NCBI RefSeq assembly: GCF_000427685.1
Contig: NZ_KE386573.1
Coordinates: forward strand, 1,162,938-1,226,937
Length of the DNA: 64,000 nucleotides
DNA from: Haloplanus natans DSM 17983
GTDB taxonomy: Archaea; Halobacteriota; Halobacteria; Halobacteriales; Haloferacaceae
Direction: 5' to 3'
Part shown: positions 42,900 through 58,679 of the stretch, in pieces
How the letters are laid out: each line of letters starts with the position of its first letter
How positions within the stretch are numbered: the first letter of the stretch is position 1
Made by a program: the position numbers and the translations under genes
Notes under the pieces: model-generated
What the model was told of the DNA's origin: nothing
Seen by the model: only the letters and a program-made list of their open reading frames with translations
Database searches by the model: none

Positions 42900-44018
42900 A
42901 TGGTCCACGTCTGTTTCGTCTCGCCGAAGATTCACAACTTCCTCGGGACCGGGGAGGAAACGGGCGCCGGCGGCGCCGAACGCCAGCAGTACCTCCTCGC
43001 CTGCGCGCTCCGTGACCGTGGCCACGACGTCTCCCTGCTCACCCGCAACTACGACGACGGTGCACGGTACGAACGCCGCGATGGCCTCGGCGTCTGGAAG
43101 TGGATTCCGGACGTTCGCGGCGTCACCGGGGCACCGTTGAAAACGTCGGCCGTCTGGTACGCTCTCGCCCGCATCGACGCCGACGTGTACTACGTCCGCG
43201 GCAACGACTTCCTCTGTATGGCTGTGGCGAACTACTGTCGGCTCACGGACGCGGCGTTCGTCTACGCCGTCTCCAGTGACGCGGACGTAGAGCCGTCGTA
43301 TCTCGCCGACTACCACCCGCTTCGGCGGCAACTCTACGTCGAGTCGATCCGGTCGGCCGACGCCGTGGCGGCACAGACCCATCACCAGCAGCGGATACTC
43401 GCGGAGGCCCACGGTATCGACTCGACGATACTCGCGAACGGGTACGACCTCCCCGACGAGGCCGACGTACCCTCCCACGAGGACCGCGAATTCGTCCTGT
43501 GGGTGGGTCGGATCGCCCGCGAGCAGAAACGGCCCGAACTGTTCCTCGACTTGGCGCGAGCCCTCCCGGAGGTGCAGTTCGTCATGGTCGGCCCGCCCAA
43601 CGACGACGAGGAGGCGTACTTCGAGGAGGTTCGTACGAAAGCGGCCGACATCGACAATCTTCGCTTCGAGGGATTCGTCGAGCCGTCGGCCATCGACGAG
43701 TACTACCGACGCGCCATCGCCCTCGTCAACACCTCGACGTACGAGGGGCTCCCGAACGTCTTTCTGGAGGCGTGGCGCTACGCGACGCCGGTCGTCTCGC
43801 TCGACTACGACCTCGACGGCGACCTGCGGACGGAGCCGATCGGCCGTCACTCGGGATCGATGGACGCGCTCGTTGCGGACGTGGCGTCACTGGTCGACGA
43901 CGTCGAGTGCCGGGCCGACCTCGGGTGGAGCGGGCGGGACTATCTGGACCGCAACTACTCCATGCGCCGGCTGGTCGAGCGATACGAGGAACTGTTCGCG
44001 GGTGTTCACGAGGGCTGA
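42900..44018 (+). CDS. family 4 glycosyltransferase
   Basis: A 372-residue GT-B enzyme. The N-domain has Gly-Ala-Gly-Gly-Ala-Glu-Arg-Gln (about 22-29), and the C-domain begins with Leu-Trp-Val-Gly-Arg-Ile-Ala-Arg-Glu-Gln-Lys-Arg-Pro (about 200). It contains the GT4 signature Asn-Thr-Ser-Thr-Tyr-Glu-Gly-Leu-Pro-Asn-Val-Phe-Leu-Glu-Ala (about 277-291). No membrane helix. Donor and acceptor cannot be read. It faces the next GT4 gene tail to tail, 20 nt apart. Confidence 0.85.
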   Translation: MVHVCFVSPKIHNFLGTGEETGAGGAERQQYLLACALRDRGHDVSLLTRNYDDGARYERRDGLGVWKWIPDVRGVTGAPLKTSAVWYALARIDADVYYVRGNDFLCMAVANYCRLTDAAFVYAVSSDADVEPSYLADYHPLRRQLYVESIRSADAVAAQTHHQQRILAEAHGIDSTILANGYDLPDEADVPSHEDREFVLWVGRIAREQKRPELFLDLARALPEVQFVMVGPPNDDEEAYFEEVRTKAADIDNLRFEGFVEPSAIDEYYRRAIALVNTSTYEGLPNVFLEAWRYATPVVSLDYDLDGDLRTEPIGRHSGSMDALVADVASLVDDVECRADLGWSGRDYLDRNYSMRRLVERYEELFAGVHEG

Positions 44019-44038
44019 CTCCGATCGTCGGGGCGTCG

Positions 44039-45253
44039 TCACTCCCCGCCCGTGTACAACCGTTCGAGCCGCTCGGTCACCGTGTCGACGGAGTGGACCT
44101 CCTCGACGTACCGCCGTCCGTTCCGGCCCATCTCGCTCCAGAGTTCCGGGTGATCGAAGAGCGTCCGTAGTTTTCGGGCGAGCGCGTCCACGTCGCGTTC
44201 GGGGGCGAGGAGACCGCTCCGTCCGTCGGCGACGATTTCCGGGATTCCGGAGTGGTAGGTCGAAACGATGGGCAGTCCACGGGCCTGTGCTTCGAGGAGT
44301 ACCGTGGGCGTTCCCTCCTCGTCACCGCTTCGAGCCGTGACGCTCGGTAGGAGGAAGACGTCGCCCTCCGCGAGGAGCTCACTCACCGCCGTTTGCTCGA
44401 CCCACCCGAGGAGTTCGACCTGCTCGCCGAGACCACGCGCCCGAATCCGCTCTTCTAAGTCCGACCGAAGATCACCGTCGCCGGCAATCCGGTAGCGCAC
44501 GTCGTACTCATCGGCGAGTTGGGCGACGGCGTCGATCGCGTACGCGAGCCCCTTCTTCTCGACGAGTCGAGCGACCGAGACGAGTTCGATCCGGTCGTCC
44601 GTCTCCCCCATCCGTTCGGAGAAGGTGAACGTCGAGGTGTCGACACAGAGCGGGATCTTGGTCGTCTTCGACGGCGGACAGCCCGCATCTTCGACCTTCT
44701 CGCGCATGTCCTCGCTGAGGACTGTCACCGCGTCGGCGGCGTCGAAGAGGGGCCCGTACCGCCGCGGATGTTTGCCGAGCGCTTCCTTGACGTCGTAGCC
44801 ATAAAACGAGACGATGAAGGGAGCGTCGGTCCGCTCGGCGAGAAATCGGAATCCGTTCCCGATCGGGCCGAAATGTGCGTGGATGGCGTCGTAGCCGTCG
44901 AGACGGTCGAGGAGCGGCGACGCGACGGGGCGGAAGGCGTCGGTCAGCCGAACCGCATCCCGTCGGTGGGAGAGGACCCGACCGAGCTGTGCCGGATCAC
45001 GGACGACGTCGACCAGGGCCCGGTAGGCAATTGGCGGGGCGACCCGGAGCCAATCGGCGCCCTCGACGGAGAGATACGTGGTTCGGTCGAGGAGGTCGTA
45101 GTCGGCGATTCGTGCGTGTGTTAGATCCTCGTCGGTTCGCTGTATCGCGTATATATCCACGCTGTGACCGTCGTCGACGAGACCGGTGATCTGGTTGAGC
45201 AGGAACGTCTCCGACAGTTTCGGGAAGGCGTTGACCAGAAACGCGACACGCAT
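44039..45253 (-). CDS. family 4 glycosyltransferase (AmsK/WcaL-like)
   Basis: A 404-residue GT-B enzyme. It begins Met-Arg-Val-Ala-Phe-Leu-Val-Asn-Ala-Phe-Pro-Lys-Leu-Ser-Glu-Thr-Phe, a start typical of colanic-acid type transferases. Later it has Ser-Val-Ala-Arg-Leu-Val-Glu-Lys-Lys-Gly-Leu and Glu-Gly-Thr-Pro-Thr-Val-Leu-Leu-Glu-Ala. ATG 45253 is chosen because this start is conserved; 20 upstream in-frame residues are basic and overlap the divergent promoter. It is divergent from the epimerase at 45342. Confidence 0.83.
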   Translation of the reverse strand: MRVAFLVNAFPKLSETFLLNQITGLVDDGHSVDIYAIQRTDEDLTHARIADYDLLDRTTYLSVEGADWLRVAPPIAYRALVDVVRDPAQLGRVLSHRRDAVRLTDAFRPVASPLLDRLDGYDAIHAHFGPIGNGFRFLAERTDAPFIVSFYGYDVKEALGKHPRRYGPLFDAADAVTVLSEDMREKVEDAGCPPSKTTKIPLCVDTSTFTFSERMGETDDRIELVSVARLVEKKGLAYAIDAVAQLADEYDVRYRIAGDGDLRSDLEERIRARGLGEQVELLGWVEQTAVSELLAEGDVFLLPSVTARSGDEEGTPTVLLEAQARGLPIVSTYHSGIPEIVADGRSGLLAPERDVDALARKLRTLFDHPELWSEMGRNGRRYVEEVHSVDTVTERLERLYTGGE

Positions 45254-45341
45254 CGTTTCCGGGTCGGCGTGCGCCCTCAAATGCGTTGCTGTCCGCTTTC
45301 GATTGGGAAGCATTTTGGTGTGGCCTCCGCAGAACTATGCT

Positions 45342-46280
45342 ATGACAGCCAAGTCAGTCCTCGTCACCGGTGCCAGCGGGATGATCGGAACGGCGCTGAT
45401 CGAGCGGCTACACGGCGACGGCTACGACGTCACCGGCGTCGACATCGAACCGAACCGGTGGAGCGATGTCGTCTCGGATCTCACGGTTCGTGCCGACCTC
45501 CTCGACGACGCCGTTGGCGACGCTCTCCCGACGGATATCGACATTCTCGTCCACCTCGCGGCTAACGCGCGCGTCCATCGACTCGTGAAGAATCCCCGGC
45601 GGGCACGCGACAACTTCGAGATGACATTCAACGTCCTCGAGTACGCCCGGCAGTCCGGCGTCTCACGAGTGATCTTCGGTAGCAGTCGCGAGGTGTACGG
45701 AAACAAAGGGAAGATCGTCTACAGCGAGGAGGACACGTACGTCGACGAGTGTGAGAGCCCCTACACTGCAAGCAAGGTCGGCGGGGAGGCGATGCTGAAG
45801 GCGTACGAACAGTGTTACGATCTGGAGGCGTCTATCCTGCGGTTCTCGAACGTCTACGGCCGGTTCGACGTTTCGGACCGCGTGCTCCCGCTGTTCATCG
45901 CGCAGGCACACGACGGGCAGGATCTGACCGTCTACGGCGACGACAAGGTGCTCGATTTCACGTATCTCGACGACTGCGTCGAGGGAATCGTCCGCGTCAT
46001 CGAGAAGTTCCACAAGGCGAAGGGGACGACGTTCAACATCGCCTCCGGCGAGGGAACCTCACTGATCGAACTCGCCGAGGAGATCGCCCGCCGAGTCGAC
46101 ACCGATGTCGACATCCACGTCGAACCGAACCGAACGGGCGAGGTCGGTCGCTACGTGGCCGATATCTCGAAGGCCAATAAGGTACTGAACTACGACCCCG
46201 TGTACTCCTTCGACGAGGGACTCGACGCGGCCGTCGACTGGTACACCGGGAATCCGCGTTTCTTCGACGAGATTCGCTGA
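45342..46280 (+). CDS. NAD-dependent nucleotide-sugar epimerase
   Basis: A 312-residue GalE-type SDR: Thr-Gly-Ala-Ser-Gly-Met-Ile-Gly near 9-16, Phe-Gly-Ser-Ser-Arg-Glu-Val-Tyr-Gly near 113, catalytic Tyr-Thr-Ala-Ser-Lys near 141-145 and Phe-Ser-Asn-Val-Tyr-Gly near 172. The C-terminus has Leu-Asp-Phe-Thr-Tyr-Leu-Asp-Asp-Cys, the usual substrate-binding helix. It would interconvert UDP-sugars for the glycan. ATG 45342 lies 88 bp from the divergent GT4 start. Confidence 0.83.
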   Translation: MTAKSVLVTGASGMIGTALIERLHGDGYDVTGVDIEPNRWSDVVSDLTVRADLLDDAVGDALPTDIDILVHLAANARVHRLVKNPRRARDNFEMTFNVLEYARQSGVSRVIFGSSREVYGNKGKIVYSEEDTYVDECESPYTASKVGGEAMLKAYEQCYDLEASILRFSNVYGRFDVSDRVLPLFIAQAHDGQDLTVYGDDKVLDFTYLDDCVEGIVRVIEKFHKAKGTTFNIASGEGTSLIELAEEIARRVDTDVDIHVEPNRTGEVGRYVADISKANKVLNYDPVYSFDEGLDAAVDWYTGNPRFFDEIR

Positions 46281-46293
46281 ACGCTTCCTCAAA

Positions 46294-46301
46294 GTATTTA
46301 T
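46294..46301 (+). promoter_or_regulatory. TATA box of the aglF-like gene
   Basis: GTATTTAT lies 24-31 nt before ATG 46325, the standard leaderless spacing. Confidence 0.6.
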
Positions 46302-46324
46302 CTCGCACCGGAGTAGCTTGCTCC

Positions 46325-47047
46325 ATGCAGGCAGTCGTACTCGCCGCCGGCGAGGGGACCCGCCTCCGCCCGCTCACCGAGGACAAACCGAAAGGGATGG
46401 TCGAAGTCGCCGGGAAACCCATTCTCACGCACTGCTTCGAACAGCTCGTCGACCTCGGCGCCGAGGAACTCGTCGTCGTCGTCGGCTACCGCAAACAGGA
46501 CATCATCAGCCACTACGGCGACGAGTACGAGGGCGTTCCGATCACCTACACCCACCAGCGCGAGCAGAAGGGGTTGGCCCACGCCCTCCTCACCGTCGAG
46601 GAACACGTCGACGACGACTTCATGCTGATGCTCGGGGACAACGTCTTCCGCGCGAACCTCGGCGACGTGGTGAACCGCCAGCGCGAGGACCGCGCCGACG
46701 CGGCCTTCCTCGTCGAGGAGGTGCCGTGGGAGGAGGCCTCCCGCTACGGCGTCTGCGTCACCAACGACTACGGCGAGATCACGGAGGTGGTCGAGAAGCC
46801 GGACGACCCACCTTCGAACCTCGTGATGACCGGCTTCTACACGTTCACGCCCGCTATCTTCCACGCCTGCGAACTCGTCCAACCCTCCAACCGCGGCGAG
46901 TACGAGATCAGCGAGGCCATCGACCTGCTCATCCGGTCGGGGCGGACCATCGACGCCATCGGCATCGAGGGCTGGCGGATCGACATTGGCTACCCCGAGG
47001 ACCGCGAGGAGGCCGAGCGGCGGATCGAAGACGAACGTGACGGGTAG
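46325..47047 (+). CDS. aglF: AglF-like sugar-1-phosphate nucleotidyltransferase
   Basis: A 240-residue nucleotidyltransferase that activates glucose-1-phosphate to a UDP- or dTDP-sugar. The N-terminal Leu-Ala-Ala-Gly-Glu-Gly-Thr-Arg-Leu-Arg-Pro-Leu-Thr is at 6-18, with Lys-Pro-Lys-Gly-Met after it. The metal site Met-Leu-Gly-Asp-Asn is near 102 and Glu-Lys-Pro near 160. Length and context match AglF of Haloferax, which makes UDP-glucose for its N-glycan. Nucleotide specificity is not proven. Confidence 0.72.
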   Translation: MQAVVLAAGEGTRLRPLTEDKPKGMVEVAGKPILTHCFEQLVDLGAEELVVVVGYRKQDIISHYGDEYEGVPITYTHQREQKGLAHALLTVEEHVDDDFMLMLGDNVFRANLGDVVNRQREDRADAAFLVEEVPWEEASRYGVCVTNDYGEITEVVEKPDDPPSNLVMTGFYTFTPAIFHACELVQPSNRGEYEISEAIDLLIRSGRTIDAIGIEGWRIDIGYPEDREEAERRIEDERDG

Positions 47048-47065
47048 TCGCCCCGCCCACGAAGT

Positions 47066-47073
47066 GTTTTTAC
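47066..47073 (+). promoter_or_regulatory. TATA box of the vapBC pair
   Basis: GTTTTTAC lies 24-31 nt before ATG 47097; a run of ACAC repeats follows it. Confidence 0.5.
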
Positions 47074-47096
47074 ACACACAACACACACAGTATAGT

Positions 47097-47321
47097 ATGG
47101 GCAGCAAGAACATCTCGATCCCGGAGGACGTCTACGAGAAGCTCCGCGAGGAGCGACGGGGCGACGAGAGCTTCGGGGAGACCATCGACCGCCTGCTCGG
47201 TCGCCGCCCGCTGTCCGAGTTCTGGGGGGATTGGAGCGGGGACACGACGGCGCGTGCGCGAAACGCCATCGAGGCGGGACGCGAGCGGAACGCCGACCGA
47301 CTCGACCGGCTGTACGACTGA
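47097..47321 (+). CDS. vapB: VapB-type antitoxin
   Basis: A 74-residue protein with a ribbon-helix-helix-like N-terminus (Ser-Lys-Asn-Ile-Ser-Ile-Pro-Glu-Asp-Val-Tyr-Glu-Lys-Leu) and a charged helical C-terminal tail that would wrap the toxin. Its TGA overlaps the toxin ATG by 1 nt, the usual layout of a VapBC pair. It would bind its own promoter (TATA at 47066) and neutralise VapC. Confidence 0.82.
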   Translation: MGSKNISIPEDVYEKLREERRGDESFGETIDRLLGRRPLSEFWGDWSGDTTARARNAIEAGRERNADRLDRLYD

Positions 47322-47707
47322 TGGCCTGTCTCGACACCTCCTTTCTGATCGACGTACTGGACGGCAACGAGGCGGCCCGCGAGACGATGGCCGACCTCGA
47401 CGAGCGTGACGAGCGCCACGCGGTTGCGCCGGTCACCGCGGCGGAACTGTGGATCGGCGCGAACCTCGGATCGGCTCGGGAGTTTCGACGAACCGAGGAA
47501 CTCGTGGAGTCGTTGCTCTGGCTCGAATTCGACCGCAACTGTGCCCGGCGCACCGGGCGGTTACAGGCGGAACTGATGGAGGCGGGCGCTCCACTCGGGT
47601 TCAACGACTGTGTGATCGCCGCGACGGCCCTCGAGTACGGACGGGAACTCGTCACCGGCGACGCCGACTTCGAGGCTGTCCCCGACCTTCGGGTGTCGAC
47701 GTACTGA
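47321..47707 (+). CDS. vapC: VapC-type PIN-domain toxin
   Basis: A 128-residue PIN ribonuclease. All acidic active-site positions are present: Asp5, Glu42, Asp96 and Asp114/Asp116 in the motifs Leu-Asp-Thr-Ser-Phe-Leu-Ile, Ala-Ala-Glu-Leu, Phe-Asn-Asp-Cys and Thr-Gly-Asp-Ala-Asp-Phe. It would cleave tRNA or rRNA when free of VapB. It lies inside the glycosylation island, facing the AglG-like gene tail to tail. Confidence 0.85.
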   Translation: MACLDTSFLIDVLDGNEAARETMADLDERDERHAVAPVTAAELWIGANLGSAREFRRTEELVESLLWLEFDRNCARRTGRLQAELMEAGAPLGFNDCVIAATALEYGRELVTGDADFEAVPDLRVSTY

Positions 47708-47708
47708 C

Positions 47709-48656
47709 CTACCCCTCGACCGTCTCCACCTTCTCCAGCAACCCAGGCGTCGCCAGCGCGTACAGATACCCCAGCCCAACCGCCCCGGTGAACACGAGGA
47801 TGGTCAGTACCTGCAACACCGCCGCTACGGACGGCTTCGTCACACAGCCTTTCACCCGCCGTGGCACCCGATCCAGAAGCAGGTAGCGGAGGTAGTCGGT
47901 CTCCTCGCCGTCCTCGTCGGGATACAGCAACTCCATTACCCGCTTCGAGTAGCCCTGCCAAAAGGATCGAAAGACGAGCCAGGTGAACTCCCCCCGATAA
48001 TCGAACAGCTTGTGATCCACCACCGCGTCGTCGGTGTAGATCACGCCCTTCCCCGTCAGCTCCCGAATCCGAATGCAGACGGGGGCCTCGTGGGCCTGGA
48101 TGTGTTTGTCGCCGCGGCGGCCGGTGTGGGTGTCGTAGCCGCCGGCCTCCAGAAACACGTCGCGCCGGAAGGAGATGTTCGACCCGTAGCCGTTGCGGAT
48201 TTCCTCGCCGTCGTCCGCGAAGCCGGGTTCGACGCAGCCGACGAGCCAGTAGAACTCCTCGGGGAAGAACTTCGGTCGCTCCGTCTGCCAGTCGGGGCGC
48301 ACGTCGCCGGCGACGGCGACGGCGTCGGTTTCCTCGTACACTGCGACGAGGTTCTCGATCCAATCGTCGTGCGCGACGGCGTCGTCGTCGATCATCGCCA
48401 CCACCTCGCCGCTGGCGAGTTCGGCGCCTTTCGTCCGCGAGTAGGAGATGCCGCGGTTCTCCTCGTTGTCGTGGCAGACGACGGGTTCGAGTCCACCGAA
48501 GTCTTCCTGGACCCGTTCGTAGACCTCGTCGTTGCCGTCGACGACGAGGACGACCTCTAGGGGGTCGTACGTCTGTGCGAGCGCGCTCTCGACGGCTTCG
48601 GTGAACGCGTCGTACCGATCCATCGCGTACGTACAGACGACGACCGACACCTGCAT
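47709..48656 (-). CDS. aglG: AglG-like dolichol-phosphate-glycan glucuronosyltransferase
   Basis: A 315-residue GT2 enzyme that probably adds the second sugar to the lipid-linked chain. It starts Met-Gln-Val-Ser-Val-Val-Val-Cys-Thr-Tyr and has Gly-Ile-Ser-Tyr-Ser-Arg-Thr-Lys-Gly and Met-Ile-Asp-Asp-Asp-Ala (DxD, about 88-93). The AglG-like Phe-Pro-Glu-Glu-Phe-Tyr-Trp-Leu-Val-Gly is near 131-140. One C-terminal membrane helix is at about 280-303. AglG of Haloferax is a glucuronosyltransferase acting on the AglJ product. ATG 48656 is chosen from the TATA box (GCTTATTC, minus strand, 48681-48690). Confidence 0.75.
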   Translation of the reverse strand: MQVSVVVCTYAMDRYDAFTEAVESALAQTYDPLEVVLVVDGNDEVYERVQEDFGGLEPVVCHDNEENRGISYSRTKGAELASGEVVAMIDDDAVAHDDWIENLVAVYEETDAVAVAGDVRPDWQTERPKFFPEEFYWLVGCVEPGFADDGEEIRNGYGSNISFRRDVFLEAGGYDTHTGRRGDKHIQAHEAPVCIRIRELTGKGVIYTDDAVVDHKLFDYRGEFTWLVFRSFWQGYSKRVMELLYPDEDGEETDYLRYLLLDRVPRRVKGCVTKPSVAAVLQVLTILVFTGAVGLGYLYALATPGLLEKVETVEG

Positions 48657-48754
48657 CGGTCCGACGTTCCGCCGAGGCGCGAATAAGCGTTTTCGTTGGC
48701 GTTCGGGACGCGTGCCGTCGTCCTCGGAACGCTGGAAAACCGTTCCGGCCACCG

Positions 48755-48900
48755 GTGACATCCTCCTCCCGGTAAACGGCGAGGCTTCCCGTCCCGCATT
48801 TGGGATATTTGCCGGTCTACGACACAACCTGTTCTCTCGTATGAAACATCCCGCTCTCGCGGTCGAACAAGTATGTCGATGGCTGTGCCACGCAGCCGTT
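48755..48900 (-). ncRNA. probable omega RNA (sotRNA) of TnpB-1
   Basis: TnpB guide RNAs arise from the 3' end of tnpB and the right end of the element. Here the minus strand forms a hairpin (CCTC-g-CCG / CGG-g-GAGG, 48765-48785) at the end of the element, and GGAGGATGTCAC marks the probable junction with the guide. Similar sense-overlapping RNAs are known from IS1341-type genes of Halobacterium. Confidence 0.4.
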
Positions 48901-50067
48901 ACTCCTATTCTCACCGTGAGGACTCGGAGTTATCTTCTGACGCATATTCTCCGCGCCGTTACAATCCGCGTTCCCGACTAACCCACACGACGAACAGACG
49001 TACAAGCCCCGCTCGACACGGTTCGACTTCGTGTCGTCACCACACTTCGAGCAGGTTTTCGACGTATCCCACTCGTTTTCCTTCAGTACCTTGACGCCAC
49101 GTTCTTCGCCTTTGTATTCGAGGTACTGGTAGAGACGGTTGAACGCCCACGAGTGCAGCTTCTTGTTACCAGTCTTACCCCAATCTGACTCACGCACGTC
49201 TTCAGGCCAGCTCACGGCGAGCGTGCCAACCCCGCGTTCGACACATTCTGTGATGATGGCGTCTGTCAGAGCGTGGTAGAAGTGAGTTTCACGATCTGCG
49301 AGTTTTTGACGTGCCCACATCGACTGCTCTGACGGCCCATTCTTTCCTTCGGTGTCGTACTCAGTACGTGTGAAGTAGTGTTTGTCTTCTTTGAGCGAGT
49401 TACCGGGGTACAGCACGTATTCGTCGGGGAACGCGACCGTGGCGATATTTGTGATGCCGAGGTCGATTCCTGCGACGCCGTCACCAGCCGAATCTGCTGT
49501 TTCGAGTTCGACTTTACAGACGAAGTGGAGTTCCCATTTCCCACCAGTCCAGACTGCCCGAACGTTCTGTACACTGTTGACTTCTGAGAGTGTAACATCC
49601 GGGCGAGTCTGGTACTCACACAAGAGAAAGTCTGAACGACCGTTTTTCAGGTTCTTGCCCTTCGAAAGTCGGACACGATTGTTTTCGGGGTCGTGCTTGA
49701 ACCCATCTTCTTTGAACGTGACCGTGGAACGTGGTCGGGTGTCACCGTGTTTGCGGTAGCCGGGCGGATTCGCCTCATCAGACTTGTGTCGCAGATCGAA
49801 CCACGTCTGGAAAGCGCCAGAAAGTTCTTCAATGACTTTCTGACTTGACTGTGCGTTCAAGTCTTTCCAGCACGGCTGGTTCTTCATGTACGATTTCAGC
49901 GTTCCTGCATCTGGAATTTCGCCAGTTGCGTCCCAGATACGGTCAGCTGTCCATCGTGCGACGTTCCAGATCTTTGAGGCGGAGTCTCCGAGCGAATCAA
50001 GGCCACCGCAGACCTGCTGGTGGTTCTGGATGGAACCAACGTAGGTGCGCGTGACCTTAATCGCCAT
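48817..50067 (-). CDS. tnpB: RNA-guided DNA endonuclease TnpB (IS1341-type)
   Basis: A 416-residue TnpB. RuvC residues are present: Asp202 in Gly-Ile-Asp-Leu-Gly-Ile-Thr, Glu289 in Trp-Pro-Glu-Asp-Val-Arg-Glu, and Asp368 in Asn-Ala-Asp-Cys-Asn-Gly-Ala-Glu-Asn. A Cys4 zinc ribbon (Cys-Ser-Lys-Cys-Gly near 339 and Cys-Ser-Ser-Cys-Gly near 358) precedes the last Asp. With an omega RNA it would cut DNA next to a short motif, preserving the element. Its GC content is lower than its neighbours'. It is clearly a different branch from the TnpB at 57256. The promoter (AATATAC, 50101-50107) gives a short leader. Confidence 0.9.
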   Translation of the reverse strand: MAIKVTRTYVGSIQNHQQVCGGLDSLGDSASKIWNVARWTADRIWDATGEIPDAGTLKSYMKNQPCWKDLNAQSSQKVIEELSGAFQTWFDLRHKSDEANPPGYRKHGDTRPRSTVTFKEDGFKHDPENNRVRLSKGKNLKNGRSDFLLCEYQTRPDVTLSEVNSVQNVRAVWTGGKWELHFVCKVELETADSAGDGVAGIDLGITNIATVAFPDEYVLYPGNSLKEDKHYFTRTEYDTEGKNGPSEQSMWARQKLADRETHFYHALTDAIITECVERGVGTLAVSWPEDVRESDWGKTGNKKLHSWAFNRLYQYLEYKGEERGVKVLKENEWDTSKTCSKCGDDTKSNRVERGLYVCSSCGLVGNADCNGAENMRQKITPSPHGENRSNGCVAQPSTYLFDRESGMFHTREQVVS

Positions 50068-50222: not shown

Positions 50223-53200
50223 ATGAGCGACGATCAGAGTCAGGGGTCCTCGTCGGTCGTAGACCTCTTTTTCGACTGGTATCATATACCCGTGCTCGTG
50301 CTCGTCGTTGCGGCGATGCTCGCCATCCGTCTCCAGGAGTACGGCACATTCATCCGGGACGGAACGGTGTACTTCTCCGGCAACGACGCCTGGTATCACC
50401 TCCGCCAGGTCGAGTACACGGTGCGTCACTGGCCCTTCACGATGCCGTACGATCCGTGGACGTACTTTCCGTACGGGACGAACGCCGCCCAGTTCGGCAC
50501 GCTGTACGACCAGTTCGTCGCGACGGCGGCGCTGGTCGTCGGTCTCGGGAGTCCGTCGAGCGATCTGATCGCCAAGACGCTGCTCGTCGCCCCCGCGGTG
50601 TTCGGCGCGCTGGTCGCGGTGCCCGTCTACTACGTCGGCAAGCGTCTCGCCGGCCGCATCGCCGGCCTCTTCGGCGCCGTCGTCCTCATGCTCCTGCCGG
50701 GCCAGTTCCTCCAGCGCGGTCTCGTCGGCTTCGCCGACCACAACATCGCCGAGCCGCTCTTCCAGACTATCGCCGTCCTCGGTCTGATGGTCGCCCTCGC
50801 GGTGGCCACGCGCGAGAAGCCCGTCTGGGAACTCGTCCTCGACCGGGACGTGGAGGCACTCCGGACGCCGCTCGTCTGGAGCGCGCTCGCCGGCGTCGCC
50901 GTTGCCCTCTACATGTGGGTGTGGCCCCCCGGCGTCCTGCTGGTCGGCGTCTTCGGCACCTACCTCGTCTACCAGCTCGTCAGCGACTACGTCACCGGCG
51001 GCACGCCGGAACCGGTCGCGTTCGTCGGCGTCGTGTCGATGGTCGTGGCCGCGCTGTTGATGCTCCTCCAGTTCGAGCAGGCGACGTTCAGCCCGACCGA
51101 CTTCGGCCTCCTCCAGCCCGCCGTCGCCCTCGGCGTCGCCGTCGGTGCGGCGTTCATGGCCGGGCTCGCACGGTTGTTCGACGACCGGGGGCTCGACCGC
51201 TCGCTCTACCCGGTCGCCATCGTCGGCCTCGTCGCCGTCGGTGCCGGCGTCGTCGCCGTTGCGCTCCCCGACCTGTTCCGGACCATCCAGACGAACTCCC
51301 TCCGCTTCATCGGGTTCAGTGCCGGCGCGGCGACGCGTACCATCTCGGAGGCCCAGCCGTACCTCTCGCCGACCGCCCTCAGGCAGAACGCGACGGACGC
51401 GACCGGGCGGATCCTGCTTGATTACGGGTTCACCCTGTTTACCGGCGTCGTGGCCGTTATCTGGCTGATCGCGAAGCCGCTGGTCGAGGACGGCGAGACC
51501 GAACGCGTCGGCTACGCCGTCGGGTCGCTCGCGCTCCTCGGACTGCTCTTCCTGATTCCCGGCCCCTTCCGAGCGATCGGTGACGCGTTCGGCATCGTCT
51601 CCGAACTCGTCGGCGTCGCGCTGGTGGCGCTGATCCTGCTGGGAGCGGTCCTCCAGACCAACTACGACGCGGAGAAACTGCTGTTCGTGATCTGGGCGGC
51701 GTTCATGACATCGGCCGCGTTCACGCAGGTCCGGTTCAACTACTACCTCGCCCCGGTCGTCGCTATCGCGAACGCCTACCTGATCGGGCAGGTCCTCGCG
51801 TATCTGGACCTCGACGGGGCCTCGATCGAATCCTCGATGGCGTCCCTGCGCGACCTGCAGGGCTATCAGGTGATCGCGGTGGTCGCGGCCGCTATGCTGA
51901 TCGTCACGCCGGTGTTGCTCGTGCCGATGAACGTCCGCAACACCGGGAACCCACAGTTCGATCGGAGTAACACGGCCTGGGAGGCGGCCGGGAACACCGG
52001 CCCCGGTGCCGTCACGGAGTGGGACGGCTCGCTCCAGTGGGTGGAGGCCAACACCCCGACGCCGGGAACGTTCGGCGGCGCGAACAACGGGATGGCGTAT
52101 TACGGCAGCTACGAGTTGACGAACGACTACGACTATCCCGCCGGCGCCTACGGCGTCCAGTCGTGGTGGGACTACGGCCACTGGATCACGGTCCGCGGGC
52201 ACCGCATCCCGAACGCCAACCCGTTCCAGCAGGGGGCGACCGGCGCCGCGAACTACCTGCTGGCGCCGAACGAGTCGGCCGCCCAGAGCGCTCTGGGTGA
52301 GCGGGATACGGAGGCCGCGGGCACCCGTTACGTGATGGTCGACTGGCAGATGGTCAATCCCAACTCGAAGTTCGGCGCTCCGGTCGTCTTCTACGACGCC
52401 TCGAACGTCTCCGCCTCGGACTTCTACGGGCCGGTGTACACCAGCAGCCTCCGCGGGAGCTTCCAGCTCCGCGAGCAGCGGTACTACGACAGCCTGATGG
52501 TGCGCCTGTACGCCTACCACGGGAGCGCGATGGAGCCCCAGCCTATCGTCGTCGACTGGGAGCGCAGACAGGCCCAGACCCAAAGTGGGCGGACCATCAC
52601 CGTCCGCACGGGTCCGCAGGGTAACCGGCCGCTAGTCCGGCAGTTAGACAATCTCTCCGCCGCCCGGGCGTACGTCGCCAACGACAGCACCGCCCAGATC
52701 GGCGGCGTCGGTCACTACCCAACCGAGCGGGTGCCCGCGCTCGAACATTACCGGCTGGTGAAGGTGAGCGAGTCGTCGGCCAACCAGTCGCGGTCGTATC
52801 GGGCGGCCACACGCCGTACCTTCGCCGTCACCGGAGTGCCGCCGTCGTCACAGACGGTCAATCGCCCCGCGTTCGTGAAGACGTTCGAGAAGGTACCCGG
52901 GGCGACCGTCACGAGCACCGGCTTGCCGCCGAACACGTCCGTCCGTGCGACGGTGCCGATGCGGGTGCCCACCTCCGGCGAGACGTTCACGTACACCCAA
53001 GAGACCCGGACCTCCCAGAACGGAACGCTGACCATGACGCTCCCCTACGCTACGACGGGCTACGACGAGTACGGCCCGTCGAACGGCTACACGAACGTGA
53101 GCGTCCGGGCGACCGGTCCCTACGTCATCGAGTCGGCACTCGCCGCTCAGAACGGGTCGATCGTCCAGTACCGCTCGGAGGTGCAGATCCGCGAGGGTCG

Positions 53201-53414
53201 CGTCAACGGCGACGTGACGGGCGAGCGGCAGGTGACGCTGAATCGGACCAACCCGTTCCAGAACCTGACGCTCGGCGGCGGTAACAGCTCCGAATCGCTC
53301 ACTCCGGTCGATCCGGCCGACGGCGCGACCGACGACGGCACGAGCGACGGATCGAGTGACGCGACGGCGACGGCCTCGGCCCTCCACGCCGACGTCGCTG
53401 TCGCCCGCAGCTAA
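50223..53414 (+). CDS. aglB: dolichyl-phosphooligosaccharide--protein glycotransferase AglB
   Basis: A 1063-residue STT3-family oligosaccharyltransferase that moves the lipid-linked glycan to Asn-x-Ser/Thr of exported proteins such as the S-layer. About 13 N-terminal helices carry the first external-loop metal site (Gly-Asn-Asp-Ala-Trp-Tyr-His-Leu-Arg near 53-61) and Asp-His-Asn near 173. The catalytic Trp-Trp-Asp-Tyr-Gly is near 647-651 at the start of the large extracellular globular domain. The C-terminal part is rich in Asn-x-Thr sites and acidic residues. Full length. Next gene downstream is DUF368, 5 nt after its stop. Confidence 0.95.
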   Translation: MSDDQSQGSSSVVDLFFDWYHIPVLVLVVAAMLAIRLQEYGTFIRDGTVYFSGNDAWYHLRQVEYTVRHWPFTMPYDPWTYFPYGTNAAQFGTLYDQFVATAALVVGLGSPSSDLIAKTLLVAPAVFGALVAVPVYYVGKRLAGRIAGLFGAVVLMLLPGQFLQRGLVGFADHNIAEPLFQTIAVLGLMVALAVATREKPVWELVLDRDVEALRTPLVWSALAGVAVALYMWVWPPGVLLVGVFGTYLVYQLVSDYVTGGTPEPVAFVGVVSMVVAALLMLLQFEQATFSPTDFGLLQPAVALGVAVGAAFMAGLARLFDDRGLDRSLYPVAIVGLVAVGAGVVAVALPDLFRTIQTNSLRFIGFSAGAATRTISEAQPYLSPTALRQNATDATGRILLDYGFTLFTGVVAVIWLIAKPLVEDGETERVGYAVGSLALLGLLFLIPGPFRAIGDAFGIVSELVGVALVALILLGAVLQTNYDAEKLLFVIWAAFMTSAAFTQVRFNYYLAPVVAIANAYLIGQVLAYLDLDGASIESSMASLRDLQGYQVIAVVAAAMLIVTPVLLVPMNVRNTGNPQFDRSNTAWEAAGNTGPGAVTEWDGSLQWVEANTPTPGTFGGANNGMAYYGSYELTNDYDYPAGAYGVQSWWDYGHWITVRGHRIPNANPFQQGATGAANYLLAPNESAAQSALGERDTEAAGTRYVMVDWQMVNPNSKFGAPVVFYDASNVSASDFYGPVYTSSLRGSFQLREQRYYDSLMVRLYAYHGSAMEPQPIVVDWERRQAQTQSGRTITVRTGPQGNRPLVRQLDNLSAARAYVANDSTAQIGGVGHYPTERVPALEHYRLVKVSESSANQSRSYRAATRRTFAVTGVPPSSQTVNRPAFVKTFEKVPGATVTSTGLPPNTSVRATVPMRVPTSGETFTYTQETRTSQNGTLTMTLPYATTGYDEYGPSNGYTNVSVRATGPYVIESALAAQNGSIVQYRSEVQIREGRVNGDVTGERQVTLNRTNPFQNLTLGGGNSSESLTPVDPADGATDDGTSDGSSDATATASALHADVAVARS

Positions 53415-53419
53415 CCCCG

Positions 53420-54358
53420 ATGCGGCCCCTCCGATCCCTGCTGATCGTCTACTGCAAGGGCGTCTGCATGGGGGCGGCCGACGCCGTCCCCGGCGTCTCG
53501 GGGGGCACCATCGCGCTCATCACGGGCATCTACGAACGCCTGATCGCCGCTATCACAGCCGTCACGCCGACCCGAATCGTCGAGGTGCTGGCCGCTCCGC
53601 TCCCCGGTCGGCGCGACGACGCCCGCACGGCCTTTCTCGCCGTCGACGGCCCCTTCCTCCTCGCCCTCGGCGCCGGCGTCCTCTCCGCCGTCCTGGTCGC
53701 GACGCGCCTCCTCCACGTCGCGCTCGAATCGGAGCCCATCGTCACTTTCGGCTTCTTTTTCGGCCTGATCGCCGCGTCGGCCGTCGTCCTCCGGACGCAG
53801 GCGTCGCTCGACACGCCGGGACGGGTCGGCGCCGCCGTCGCCGGCTTCCTGCTTGCCTTCCTCTCGGCCGGCCGGGCCGCCGCCGCCCTCCCCGCCTCGC
53901 CAGTCGTCACCGTCGCCGTCGGCGCCGTCGCCATCAGTGCGATGGTGCTTCCCGGCATCTCCGGGTCGCTCATCCTCGTCATTCTCGGGCAGTACGAATT
54001 CCTCGTCTCCCGGCTGACGGCCTTCGTCGACGGCCTCCTCGGCCTCCTGGTCGGCGGGTCGGTCGAGGCGGTGCTCGACCCCGCGACGACGGTGGTTGCC
54101 TTCCTCGTCGGCGCCGTCGTCGGTCTCTTTACCGTCGCCCACGCCGTCCGCTGGGCGCTCGTCCACTACCGCTACGCGACGCTCGCCTTTCTGGTGAGTC
54201 TGGTCGTCGGCGGTCTACGCGCCCCCGTGGTGAAAGCGGGCGAGAACTTGTCGGCCGGGTGGACGGCCGACGCCCTCCTCGCGTTCGGCCTCGCGGCCGT
54301 CGTCGGTGCCGTCCTCGTCGGCGTCCTCGAGTATTACACCGACAGCATCGAAATCTGA
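53420..54358 (+). CDS. DUF368 membrane protein, probable polyprenyl/dolichyl-phosphate translocase (PopT-like)
   Basis: A 312-residue protein with about nine helices. The DUF368 hallmark is at the N-terminus: Lys-Gly-x3-Met-Gly-Ala-Ala-Asp-Ala-Val-Pro-Gly-Val-Ser-Gly-Gly-Thr, repeated in part near 173-181 as Leu-Pro-Gly-Ile-Ser-Gly-Ser (an inverted-repeat fold). In bacteria DUF368 (PopT) returns undecaprenyl phosphate to the inner leaflet. Here it lies 5 nt after aglB, the enzyme that releases dolichyl phosphate outside, so recycling of that carrier is a strong inference for this gene. Confidence 0.85.
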   Translation: MRPLRSLLIVYCKGVCMGAADAVPGVSGGTIALITGIYERLIAAITAVTPTRIVEVLAAPLPGRRDDARTAFLAVDGPFLLALGAGVLSAVLVATRLLHVALESEPIVTFGFFFGLIAASAVVLRTQASLDTPGRVGAAVAGFLLAFLSAGRAAAALPASPVVTVAVGAVAISAMVLPGISGSLILVILGQYEFLVSRLTAFVDGLLGLLVGGSVEAVLDPATTVVAFLVGAVVGLFTVAHAVRWALVHYRYATLAFLVSLVVGGLRAPVVKAGENLSAGWTADALLAFGLAAVVGAVLVGVLEYYTDSIEI

Positions 54359-57185: not shown

Positions 57186-57330
57186 TACCCTACTTCGCTC
57201 ACCACATACCGGGTTCGCTCGTTGGGGGTAGGGTTTTGATGTGGACTCCCGGTAATCAGTCGCCAGCAAGAGGCTGGTGACTCTCACCGCTCAATATCCC
57301 ACCATTCACACGCACGTCTACTTGTGCGTC
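57186..57330 (-). ncRNA. probable omega RNA of TnpB-2
   Basis: The 3' end of tnpB and the right-end hairpin (57188-57233) together have the layout of a TnpB guide RNA. The guide would be the flanking DNA beyond about 57186, between the element and the phosphatase gene. Confidence 0.35.
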
Positions 57331-58503
57331 TCCGCTCCCCGACTTGGGCGAGGAACGGAGTTTGTGTTGCCGCTTCCGAGCGTACCGCACGCCAATATTC
57401 TTTGCAGCGTTATAATCCGCGTTCACTTCATACCCACACTTCTGGCACTCGAACTGTTCGCCGTGCCGGTTGCCCTCGTGCGTAAAGCCACAGTCCGTCC
57501 GGGAACACCGTTGGGATGTCTGGCTCGGCTCGACCTGCTCCACGGAGACCCCCCGTTCAGGGGCCTTGTAGGAGACGTATTCAAACAGGCGTCGGAACGC
57601 CCAGACGTGGTGCCACTTCGCGTCCGGAAGCCGCTCACGGATGTCCGTTAGGTCCTCGAACGCGATCACATCGCAGTCGTGTTCGACGGCTTCCGAGACG
57701 AGTTCGTTGGCGATCGTATGGCTGTACTGTTTGCGCCAGGCTTCCTCTCGCTTCCCGAGGCGAAGCAGGGCCTTGTGTGCGGCCTGCGTGCCGCGTTGTT
57801 GCATCTCACCACGCCGCTTCTCGAACTCACGACACCAGTGGTCGTAGTCGTCCCCCTGCCAAAACGTGCCAGTTGAGGACACAGCGAGGCTGTTGACGCC
57901 GAGGTCGATACCGAGGACCGTTTGCTCGGAGTGCCCGGTATCTTCCGAAACCCCATCGTCACCGTCTGTCCGCCGCGTCGAAATGTTGAGGTAGAACTCG
58001 TCAGTGGCCGCGTCGTACCGAAGCGTACTCTCGCGGAACTCGTAGTTCTCGGAGAGTACGTACCGCTCGTAGGGCGTCGGACTGTCTGCCGGGAGAACGA
58101 ACGACGGTTCGACTCGGTCCTCAACAGTTGCCAGCGACACCTTGTTCCGGTAGAACGTCGCGCTTCGCGTGTCGTAGTCCATCGTTTCAGCGGTGAACGT
58201 CGGTTGAGAGACACGCTGTCCCTTTTTCCACCGTTCGACACACGCTTTGATGGCTTCGACAGCGCGTTTGATGGCGGCTTGGACGAGTTGGGCCTGTAGG
58301 TCCGTCTCCTCTCGAAGTTCGGCGTAGAGCGCGTCACGAACCTCTCGCTTGTTGGTCTTACACTCGGCGTAGGAGGTGTCGGACCAACAGTAGTCGGCGG
58401 TTTGGTTCGCGCAGTACAGGTATTGCTCGGCGGTTCGGTGGAGTGCGTCGCGTTGCTCGTCGGAAACGGCGAGTTTCACGACGGCGGTTCGACGCACACC
58501 CAT
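57256..58503 (-). CDS. tnpB: RNA-guided DNA endonuclease TnpB, catalytic residues intact
   Basis: A 415-residue TnpB of the classical subtype. Asp200 (Gly-Ile-Asp-Leu-Gly-Val-Asn), Glu283 (Ala-Phe-Glu-Asp-Leu) and Asp363 (Asn-Ala-Asp-Tyr-Asn-Ala-Ala-Lys-Asn) give a complete RuvC site. The zinc ribbon is Cys-Ser-Arg-Thr-Asp-Cys-Gly (near 333) and Cys-Gln-Lys-Cys-Gly (near 353). ATG 58503 is preferred over 58530 because the minus-strand TATA (GTATATG, about 58528-58534) covers the latter. No tnpA is present. It lies between the phosphatase gene and the GlpA-like gene. Confidence 0.9.
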   Translation of the reverse strand: MGVRRTAVVKLAVSDEQRDALHRTAEQYLYCANQTADYCWSDTSYAECKTNKREVRDALYAELREETDLQAQLVQAAIKRAVEAIKACVERWKKGQRVSQPTFTAETMDYDTRSATFYRNKVSLATVEDRVEPSFVLPADSPTPYERYVLSENYEFRESTLRYDAATDEFYLNISTRRTDGDDGVSEDTGHSEQTVLGIDLGVNSLAVSSTGTFWQGDDYDHWCREFEKRRGEMQQRGTQAAHKALLRLGKREEAWRKQYSHTIANELVSEAVEHDCDVIAFEDLTDIRERLPDAKWHHVWAFRRLFEYVSYKAPERGVSVEQVEPSQTSQRCSRTDCGFTHEGNRHGEQFECQKCGYEVNADYNAAKNIGVRYARKRQHKLRSSPKSGSGDAQVDVRVNGGILSGESHQPLAGD

Positions 58504-58514
58504 AGTTTCAGAGA

Positions 58515-58528
58515 GTACCCGACGGTAC
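58515..58528. repeat. hairpin next to the TnpB-2 start
   Basis: GTACC-CGAC-GGTAC is a perfect 5-bp stem with a 4-nt loop, 11 nt upstream of the tnpB ATG and partly within its promoter. Compare the palindrome that touches the ATG of TnpB-1. Confidence 0.4.
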
Positions 58529-58679
58529 ATATACGCTTGGGAGTCAGTCGATCGCTGTGTGGCGGTTGTGTCCTCCCTTGTCGGTTTCCTCCCTGACCTA
58601 CTCGCTCACTCCGTTCGCTCCTTGAGGTCGGGGGCTCTACTTCGAAAATGCTGAAGTGATCCGCCCGCCATCCTCGCCC

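Follow-up and report, generated by a model that had tools for sequence, protein, structure and literature searches.

Linkage of a DUF368/PopT-family gene to aglB in Halobacteria and its candidate role in dolichyl-phosphate return

A gene for a DUF368/PopT-family membrane protein follows the oligosaccharyltransferase gene aglB in Haloplanus natans DSM 17983, and this arrangement is conserved in most Halobacteria and recurs in a second archaeal phylum. The two genes probably form an N-glycosylation operon, in which an archaeal PopT returns the dolichyl phosphate that AglB leaves in the outer leaflet to the cytoplasmic leaflet. The substrate, the direction of transport and the role in glycosylation are deduced, inward return of dolichyl phosphate being the best reading of the conserved coupling to aglB. 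That DUF368 proteins serve archaeal polyprenyl or dolichol phosphate is not a new idea. In Vibrio and Staphylococcus the loss of DUF368 disturbs the recycling of undecaprenyl phosphate, a DUF368 protein of Haloferax volcanii partly rescues a Vibrio DUF368 mutant, and the authors of that study extended the idea to dolichol phosphate (PMC9876793). New in this analysis are the linkage counts, the recurrence of the linkage in a second phylum, and a haloarchaeal clade of paralogues that is never linked to aglB (36/36). A literature search found no paper joining DUF368 with AglB; an earlier report of synteny with aglB is possible, as the companion PopT paper by Roney and Rudner, which lay outside this search, reportedly mentions syntenic analyses in its abstract.

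The aglB-DUF368 locus of Haloplanus natans

The window analyzed is the whole stretch of 64,000 nucleotides, to which all coordinates refer. The aglB gene (50223 to 53414, forward strand) encodes an archaeal oligosaccharyltransferase of the STT3 family with 1063 amino acids, which matches the Pfam profiles STT3 (PF02516, 4.2e-24), AglB_core (PF22627, 2.9e-20) and AglB_L1 (PF18079, 1.7e-12), scores 924 bits against the archaeal STT3 model TIGR04154 (cut-off 450) and carries the catalytic WWDYG motif at residue 648. Five nucleotides (53415 to 53419) separate its stop codon from the ATG of the DUF368 gene (53420 to 54358, same strand), a gap that, as read from the sequence, implies co-transcription. 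The product of the latter gene, a membrane protein of 312 amino acids, matches PF04018 over residues 17 to 268 (5.7e-59, 200 bits, cut-off 26), and its tree placement assigns it to the aglB-linked type described below. A genome-wide profile search identified it as the only PF04018 protein of this strain. Both reading frames thus lie exactly where the original prediction had placed them, 5 nt apart, and their domains were confirmed.

Divergent from aglB, a glycosyltransferase of the GT2 family is encoded at 47709 to 48914 on the reverse strand (PF00535, 1.3e-23). Between the two lies a TnpB-type ORF of the IS200/IS605 group (48817 to 50067, reverse strand; PF07282, 4.2e-20; PF01385, 1.9e-13), which is outside the aglB-DUF368 system. 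The GT2 gene is a frequent companion of aglB in relatives. Together with a second ORF of this type at 57256 to 58530, the TnpB-type ORF flanks the region. Further upstream, at 42900 to 47047, are genes for two GT4 glycosyltransferases, an NAD-dependent epimerase and a sugar nucleotidyltransferase, which probably belong together with aglB to one glycosylation gene island. This island also contains a PIN-domain protein (47231 to 47707; PF01850, 5.2e-20), whose gene is overlapped by an upstream ORF (46986 to 47321) with resemblance to VapB antitoxins, the two likely forming a VapBC pair.

The DUF368 protein and its proposed function

The family membership of the protein is supported by several features. 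It contains the two PG[VI]SG motifs, namely, PGVSG at position 24 and PGISG at position 178, and with them keeps the residues that are invariant from Vibrio to archaea; an alignment of 48 sequences with two Vibrio rows has 25 invariant columns. The AlphaFold2 model built on this 48-row alignment (mean pLDDT 93, pTM 0.86) is polytopic, and its helices 4-22/28-34 and 161-176/182-188 are interrupted at these motifs, where they may be re-entrant. A search for solved structural relatives gave none by sequence or by fold, the best fold hit having an E value of 0.08 and a TM score of about 0.17. Scores against the NCBIfam equivalogs NF052564 and NF052563 were 175 and 81 bits, far below the cut-off of 400 for each; by its sequence, the protein is thus a member of the DUF368/PopT family but no equivalog under the NCBI rule.

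With the bacterial PopT proteins VCA0040 of Vibrio cholerae and SAOUHSC_00846 of Staphylococcus aureus it shares the family over nearly the whole length, both motifs and a single membrane domain. Bacterial PopT acts on the polyprenyl phosphate left outside the membrane, and by analogy the same action is proposed here. Unlike its bacterial counterparts, the H. natans gene shares a predicted operon with an oligosaccharyltransferase, and its natural carrier would be the saturated dolichyl phosphate rather than undecaprenyl phosphate. An experimental parallel is another haloarchaeal DUF368 protein, HVO_RS12060 of H. volcanii, whose partial complementation concerned a bacterial mutant and not dolichyl phosphate or N-glycosylation (PMC9876793).

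In the established part of the pathway, AglB takes the glycan off dolichyl phosphate and attaches it to asparagine at the outer membrane face, and dolichyl phosphate stays behind in the outer leaflet. The DUF368 protein would then bind the phosphate head group of this lipid and bring it back to the cytoplasmic leaflet, where glycosyltransferases would reload it. Since archaeal N-glycans are mostly built on and delivered from dolichyl monophosphate (PMC4476749), the product of AglB would be a direct substrate for a PopT-type protein. The original prediction had left it open whether AglB releases dolichyl phosphate or pyrophosphate; in haloarchaea it is mainly the monophosphate, whereas Halobacterium salinarum was proposed to use both (PMC4476749), so that the alternative may hold there as well. 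As mainly monophosphate is left, no phosphatase would be needed in the simple case.

Conservation of the linkage in Halobacteria

The linkage was analyzed in 194 genomes of Halobacteria with a completeness of at least 90%. Profile searches detected DUF368 in 192 of them and the AglB core domain likewise in 192, with both present in 191. Hits were placed by a script for 121 of these genomes, and the other 70 were judged by eye. In 125 of the 191 genomes, belonging to 43 genera and 9 families, DUF368 is the next gene downstream of aglB and has the same orientation; 8 genomes have it, likewise on that strand but not adjacent, no more than about 3.5 kb away from the AglB core domain, and in 58 the two genes are apart or on separate contigs, although some of the latter cases, such as that of genome G178, may reflect contig breaks. 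The original prediction had called for such a count and would have been undermined by adjacency due to chance in few genomes; the opposite was found. Chance adjacency was ruled out, because two genes placed at random among some 3,500 would be expected to end up adjacent in well under one case overall, an estimate that, the genomes being related, is not a formal probability.

Of 23 haloarchaeal loci with the adjacent pair that were inspected in full, 15 have an intergenic gap of at most 7 nt, and the whole range is -1 to 103 nt. Six loci in which the pair is near but interrupted were inspected: the intervening gene encodes a UDP-glucose dehydrogenase in four and a nucleotidyltransferase in one, with no assignment in the sixth. 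UDP-glucose dehydrogenase and sugar nucleotidyltransferase activities, of the AglM and AglF type, belong to N-glycosylation in haloarchaea. The most common other neighbor of the pair is the GT2 homologue, which 11 of 21 adjacent loci carry in the corresponding divergent position, and in the family of H. natans the methyltransferase and HAD genes downstream of the pair are also conserved. In one genus of this family, g6, DUF368 retains these usual downstream neighbors and aglB is located elsewhere. In two genomes (G094 and G108) an additional partial PF04018 match, covering profile positions of about 179 to 229, follows the intact gene and is perhaps a decayed duplicate.

DUF368 and AglB in other archaea

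Among the 123 genomes sampled from the phylum outside Halobacteria, DUF368 was found in 21 and STT3 in 117, and none of the 21 genomes with DUF368 from these non-haloarchaeal Halobacteriota has the two genes adjacent; in three genera of family f33 they are 14 to 15 kb apart on the same strand. Since 96 of the 102 genomes lacking DUF368 possess STT3, the N-glycosylation pathway can operate without this protein. Most STT3-bearing methanogen genomes lack DUF368, and a general archaeal requirement for it was therefore rejected. In several methanogen loci (L010, L011 and L064, and the 20-kb loci L004 to L006) DUF368 is often beside or near a gene whose product starts with MFIGIDHGTT and resembles a methanogenesis marker protein, with an epimerase and a GDGMADEP-type phosphoglycerate mutase also nearby and no AglB adjoining.

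A different picture emerges in Thermoplasmatota, the phylum of the Thermoplasmata MAG L067, in which 34 of 196 genomes contain DUF368. All seven intact loci of one lineage have the order AglB, AMMECR1, amidohydrolase, DUF368 and inositol-monophosphatase family on one strand, mostly with short gaps (AMMECR1 was not called in L180); the remaining DUF368 genes are cut by contig ends (four loci) or belong to divergent types without AglB nearby. The AglB proteins of seven loci (L175, L177 to L181 and L192) have about 1290 amino acids, and C-terminal carboxypeptidase-regulatory-like beta domains were observed in those of L067 and L177. A tree that included bacterial outgroups places the linked DUF368 proteins of Thermoplasmatota with those of Methanobrevibacter and other methanogens (SH-aLRT 86) and unites the haloarchaeal ones in a clade by themselves (SH-aLRT 100). 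Because the linked proteins of the two phyla fall into different groups, the tree points, with modest support, to separate origins of the association in Halobacteria and Thermoplasmatota.

Linked and free-standing DUF368 types

In a tree built from 81 DUF368 proteins of haloarchaea, 36 sequences from three families (f4, f5 and f7) form a clade (SH-aLRT 91), and all of them are unlinked to aglB; the support for this clade was 96/95 in a smaller, more careful tree. Outside the clade, 37 of 45 examined sequences are linked. Some genomes, among them G031, G049, G159, G196 and G021, have one protein of each type, and those with only the unlinked type retain AglB. Given that the unlinked sequences form a clade of their own, that most of the others are linked and that genus g6 retains the downstream neighbors, the main haloarchaeal type appears to have been linked ancestrally, and a distinct, free-standing type seems to have taken its place in several lineages. 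In addition, the complete (100%) haloarchaeal genome G136 (locus L217) has no STT3/AglB match, and its sole DUF368 protein is of the free-standing type, a single case that suggests other clients for this type.

These observations bear on the most serious competing explanation, according to which DUF368 is a general polyprenyl-phosphate transporter that also serves exopolysaccharide, S-layer glycans or other glycosylation, and that stands beside aglB as its main consumer or by ancestral order without being dedicated to N-glycosylation. This explanation has a substantial, if clearly minor, chance of being correct. It accounts for the free-standing clade, for its retention in G136 and for the presence of AglB where only the unlinked type occurs, and it agrees with the finding that bacterial PopT serves a shared undecaprenyl-phosphate pool (PMC9876793). 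It is less compatible with the persistence of the linked type a few nucleotides away from aglB across nine families, where other neighbors were lost more often, a comparison biased by the choice of loci for their adjacency, and with the recurrence of the pairing in another phylum. Tentatively, the PopT proteins of haloarchaea may fall into two lineages split in function: one coupled to aglB, whose protein would be a physical or kinetic partner of AglB and receive dolichyl phosphate straight from it, and a stand-alone paralogue that would serve other carrier pathways and would have supplanted the coupled one in several lineages.

Alternative flippases and gene order

The DedA/UptA family (PF09335), the other known family of undecaprenyl-phosphate flippases, is also present in haloarchaea. 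It differs in sequence from the DUF368 protein of the window, which matches PF04018 alone and not PF09335. All 25 haloarchaea in the phylum sample have one to four DedA matches (four in H. natans), so that redundancy with DUF368 is likely. DedA proteins might therefore recycle the carrier in haloarchaea, with DUF368 acting only under special conditions such as high salt or alkaline pH, in line with the conditional phenotypes of the Vibrio and Staphylococcus mutants (PMC9876793). This is considered unlikely: DUF368 is near-universal in Halobacteria, above any other archaeal group tested here, and 55 of the 123 non-haloarchaeal genomes have neither family. A complementary distribution of the two families outside Halobacteria was rejected, as mutual exclusion was not significant (DedA in 6/21 genomes with DUF368 versus 47/102 without; Fisher p = 0.16). 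DUF368 is consequently one answer to carrier recycling rather than the answer of archaea in general. The original prediction of a dolichyl-phosphate recycler accordingly holds in part: it fits the linkage in two phyla, the PopT motifs and fold and the published partial complementation, but its extension to archaea in general fails, given the distribution of DUF368 and STT3 and the DedA alternatives.

It is very doubtful that the adjacency is an inherited gene order devoid of functional meaning. The haloarchaeal linkage is indeed mostly a single inherited state with some losses, amounting to about six changes on the tree, and in the family of H. natans conservation extends to the methyltransferase and HAD genes behind the pair. 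However, overlapping or nearly overlapping reading frames have been maintained across deeply divergent haloarchaea, the genes found between the pair are mostly pathway genes, and the Thermoplasmatota linkage is separate and has a different gene order. Finally, a role of the DUF368 protein as outward flippase for glycan-charged dolichyl phosphate instead of inward carrier of the empty lipid, as might be expected of a lipid-phosphate transporter family encoded beside the enzyme that consumes the flipped glycolipid, and on whose direction linkage alone is silent, is highly improbable, as bacteria use other families for glycan-loaded carriers. Free undecaprenyl phosphate is what the bacterial family handles (PMC9876793).

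Implications

The recycling of the carrier is a step still lacking in the picture of both archaeal N-glycosylation and eukaryotic dolichol biology. For the proposed return of dolichyl phosphate, the linkage to aglB offers a candidate gene that is open to genetic work in haloarchaea. The places to look for function are marked by the linked and unlinked paralogues, together with the archaea that have neither DUF368 nor DedA and in which another flippase must exist. If the division into two PopT lineages is true, the coupled protein would be the first dedicated carrier-recycling component in an archaeal N-glycosylation operon.
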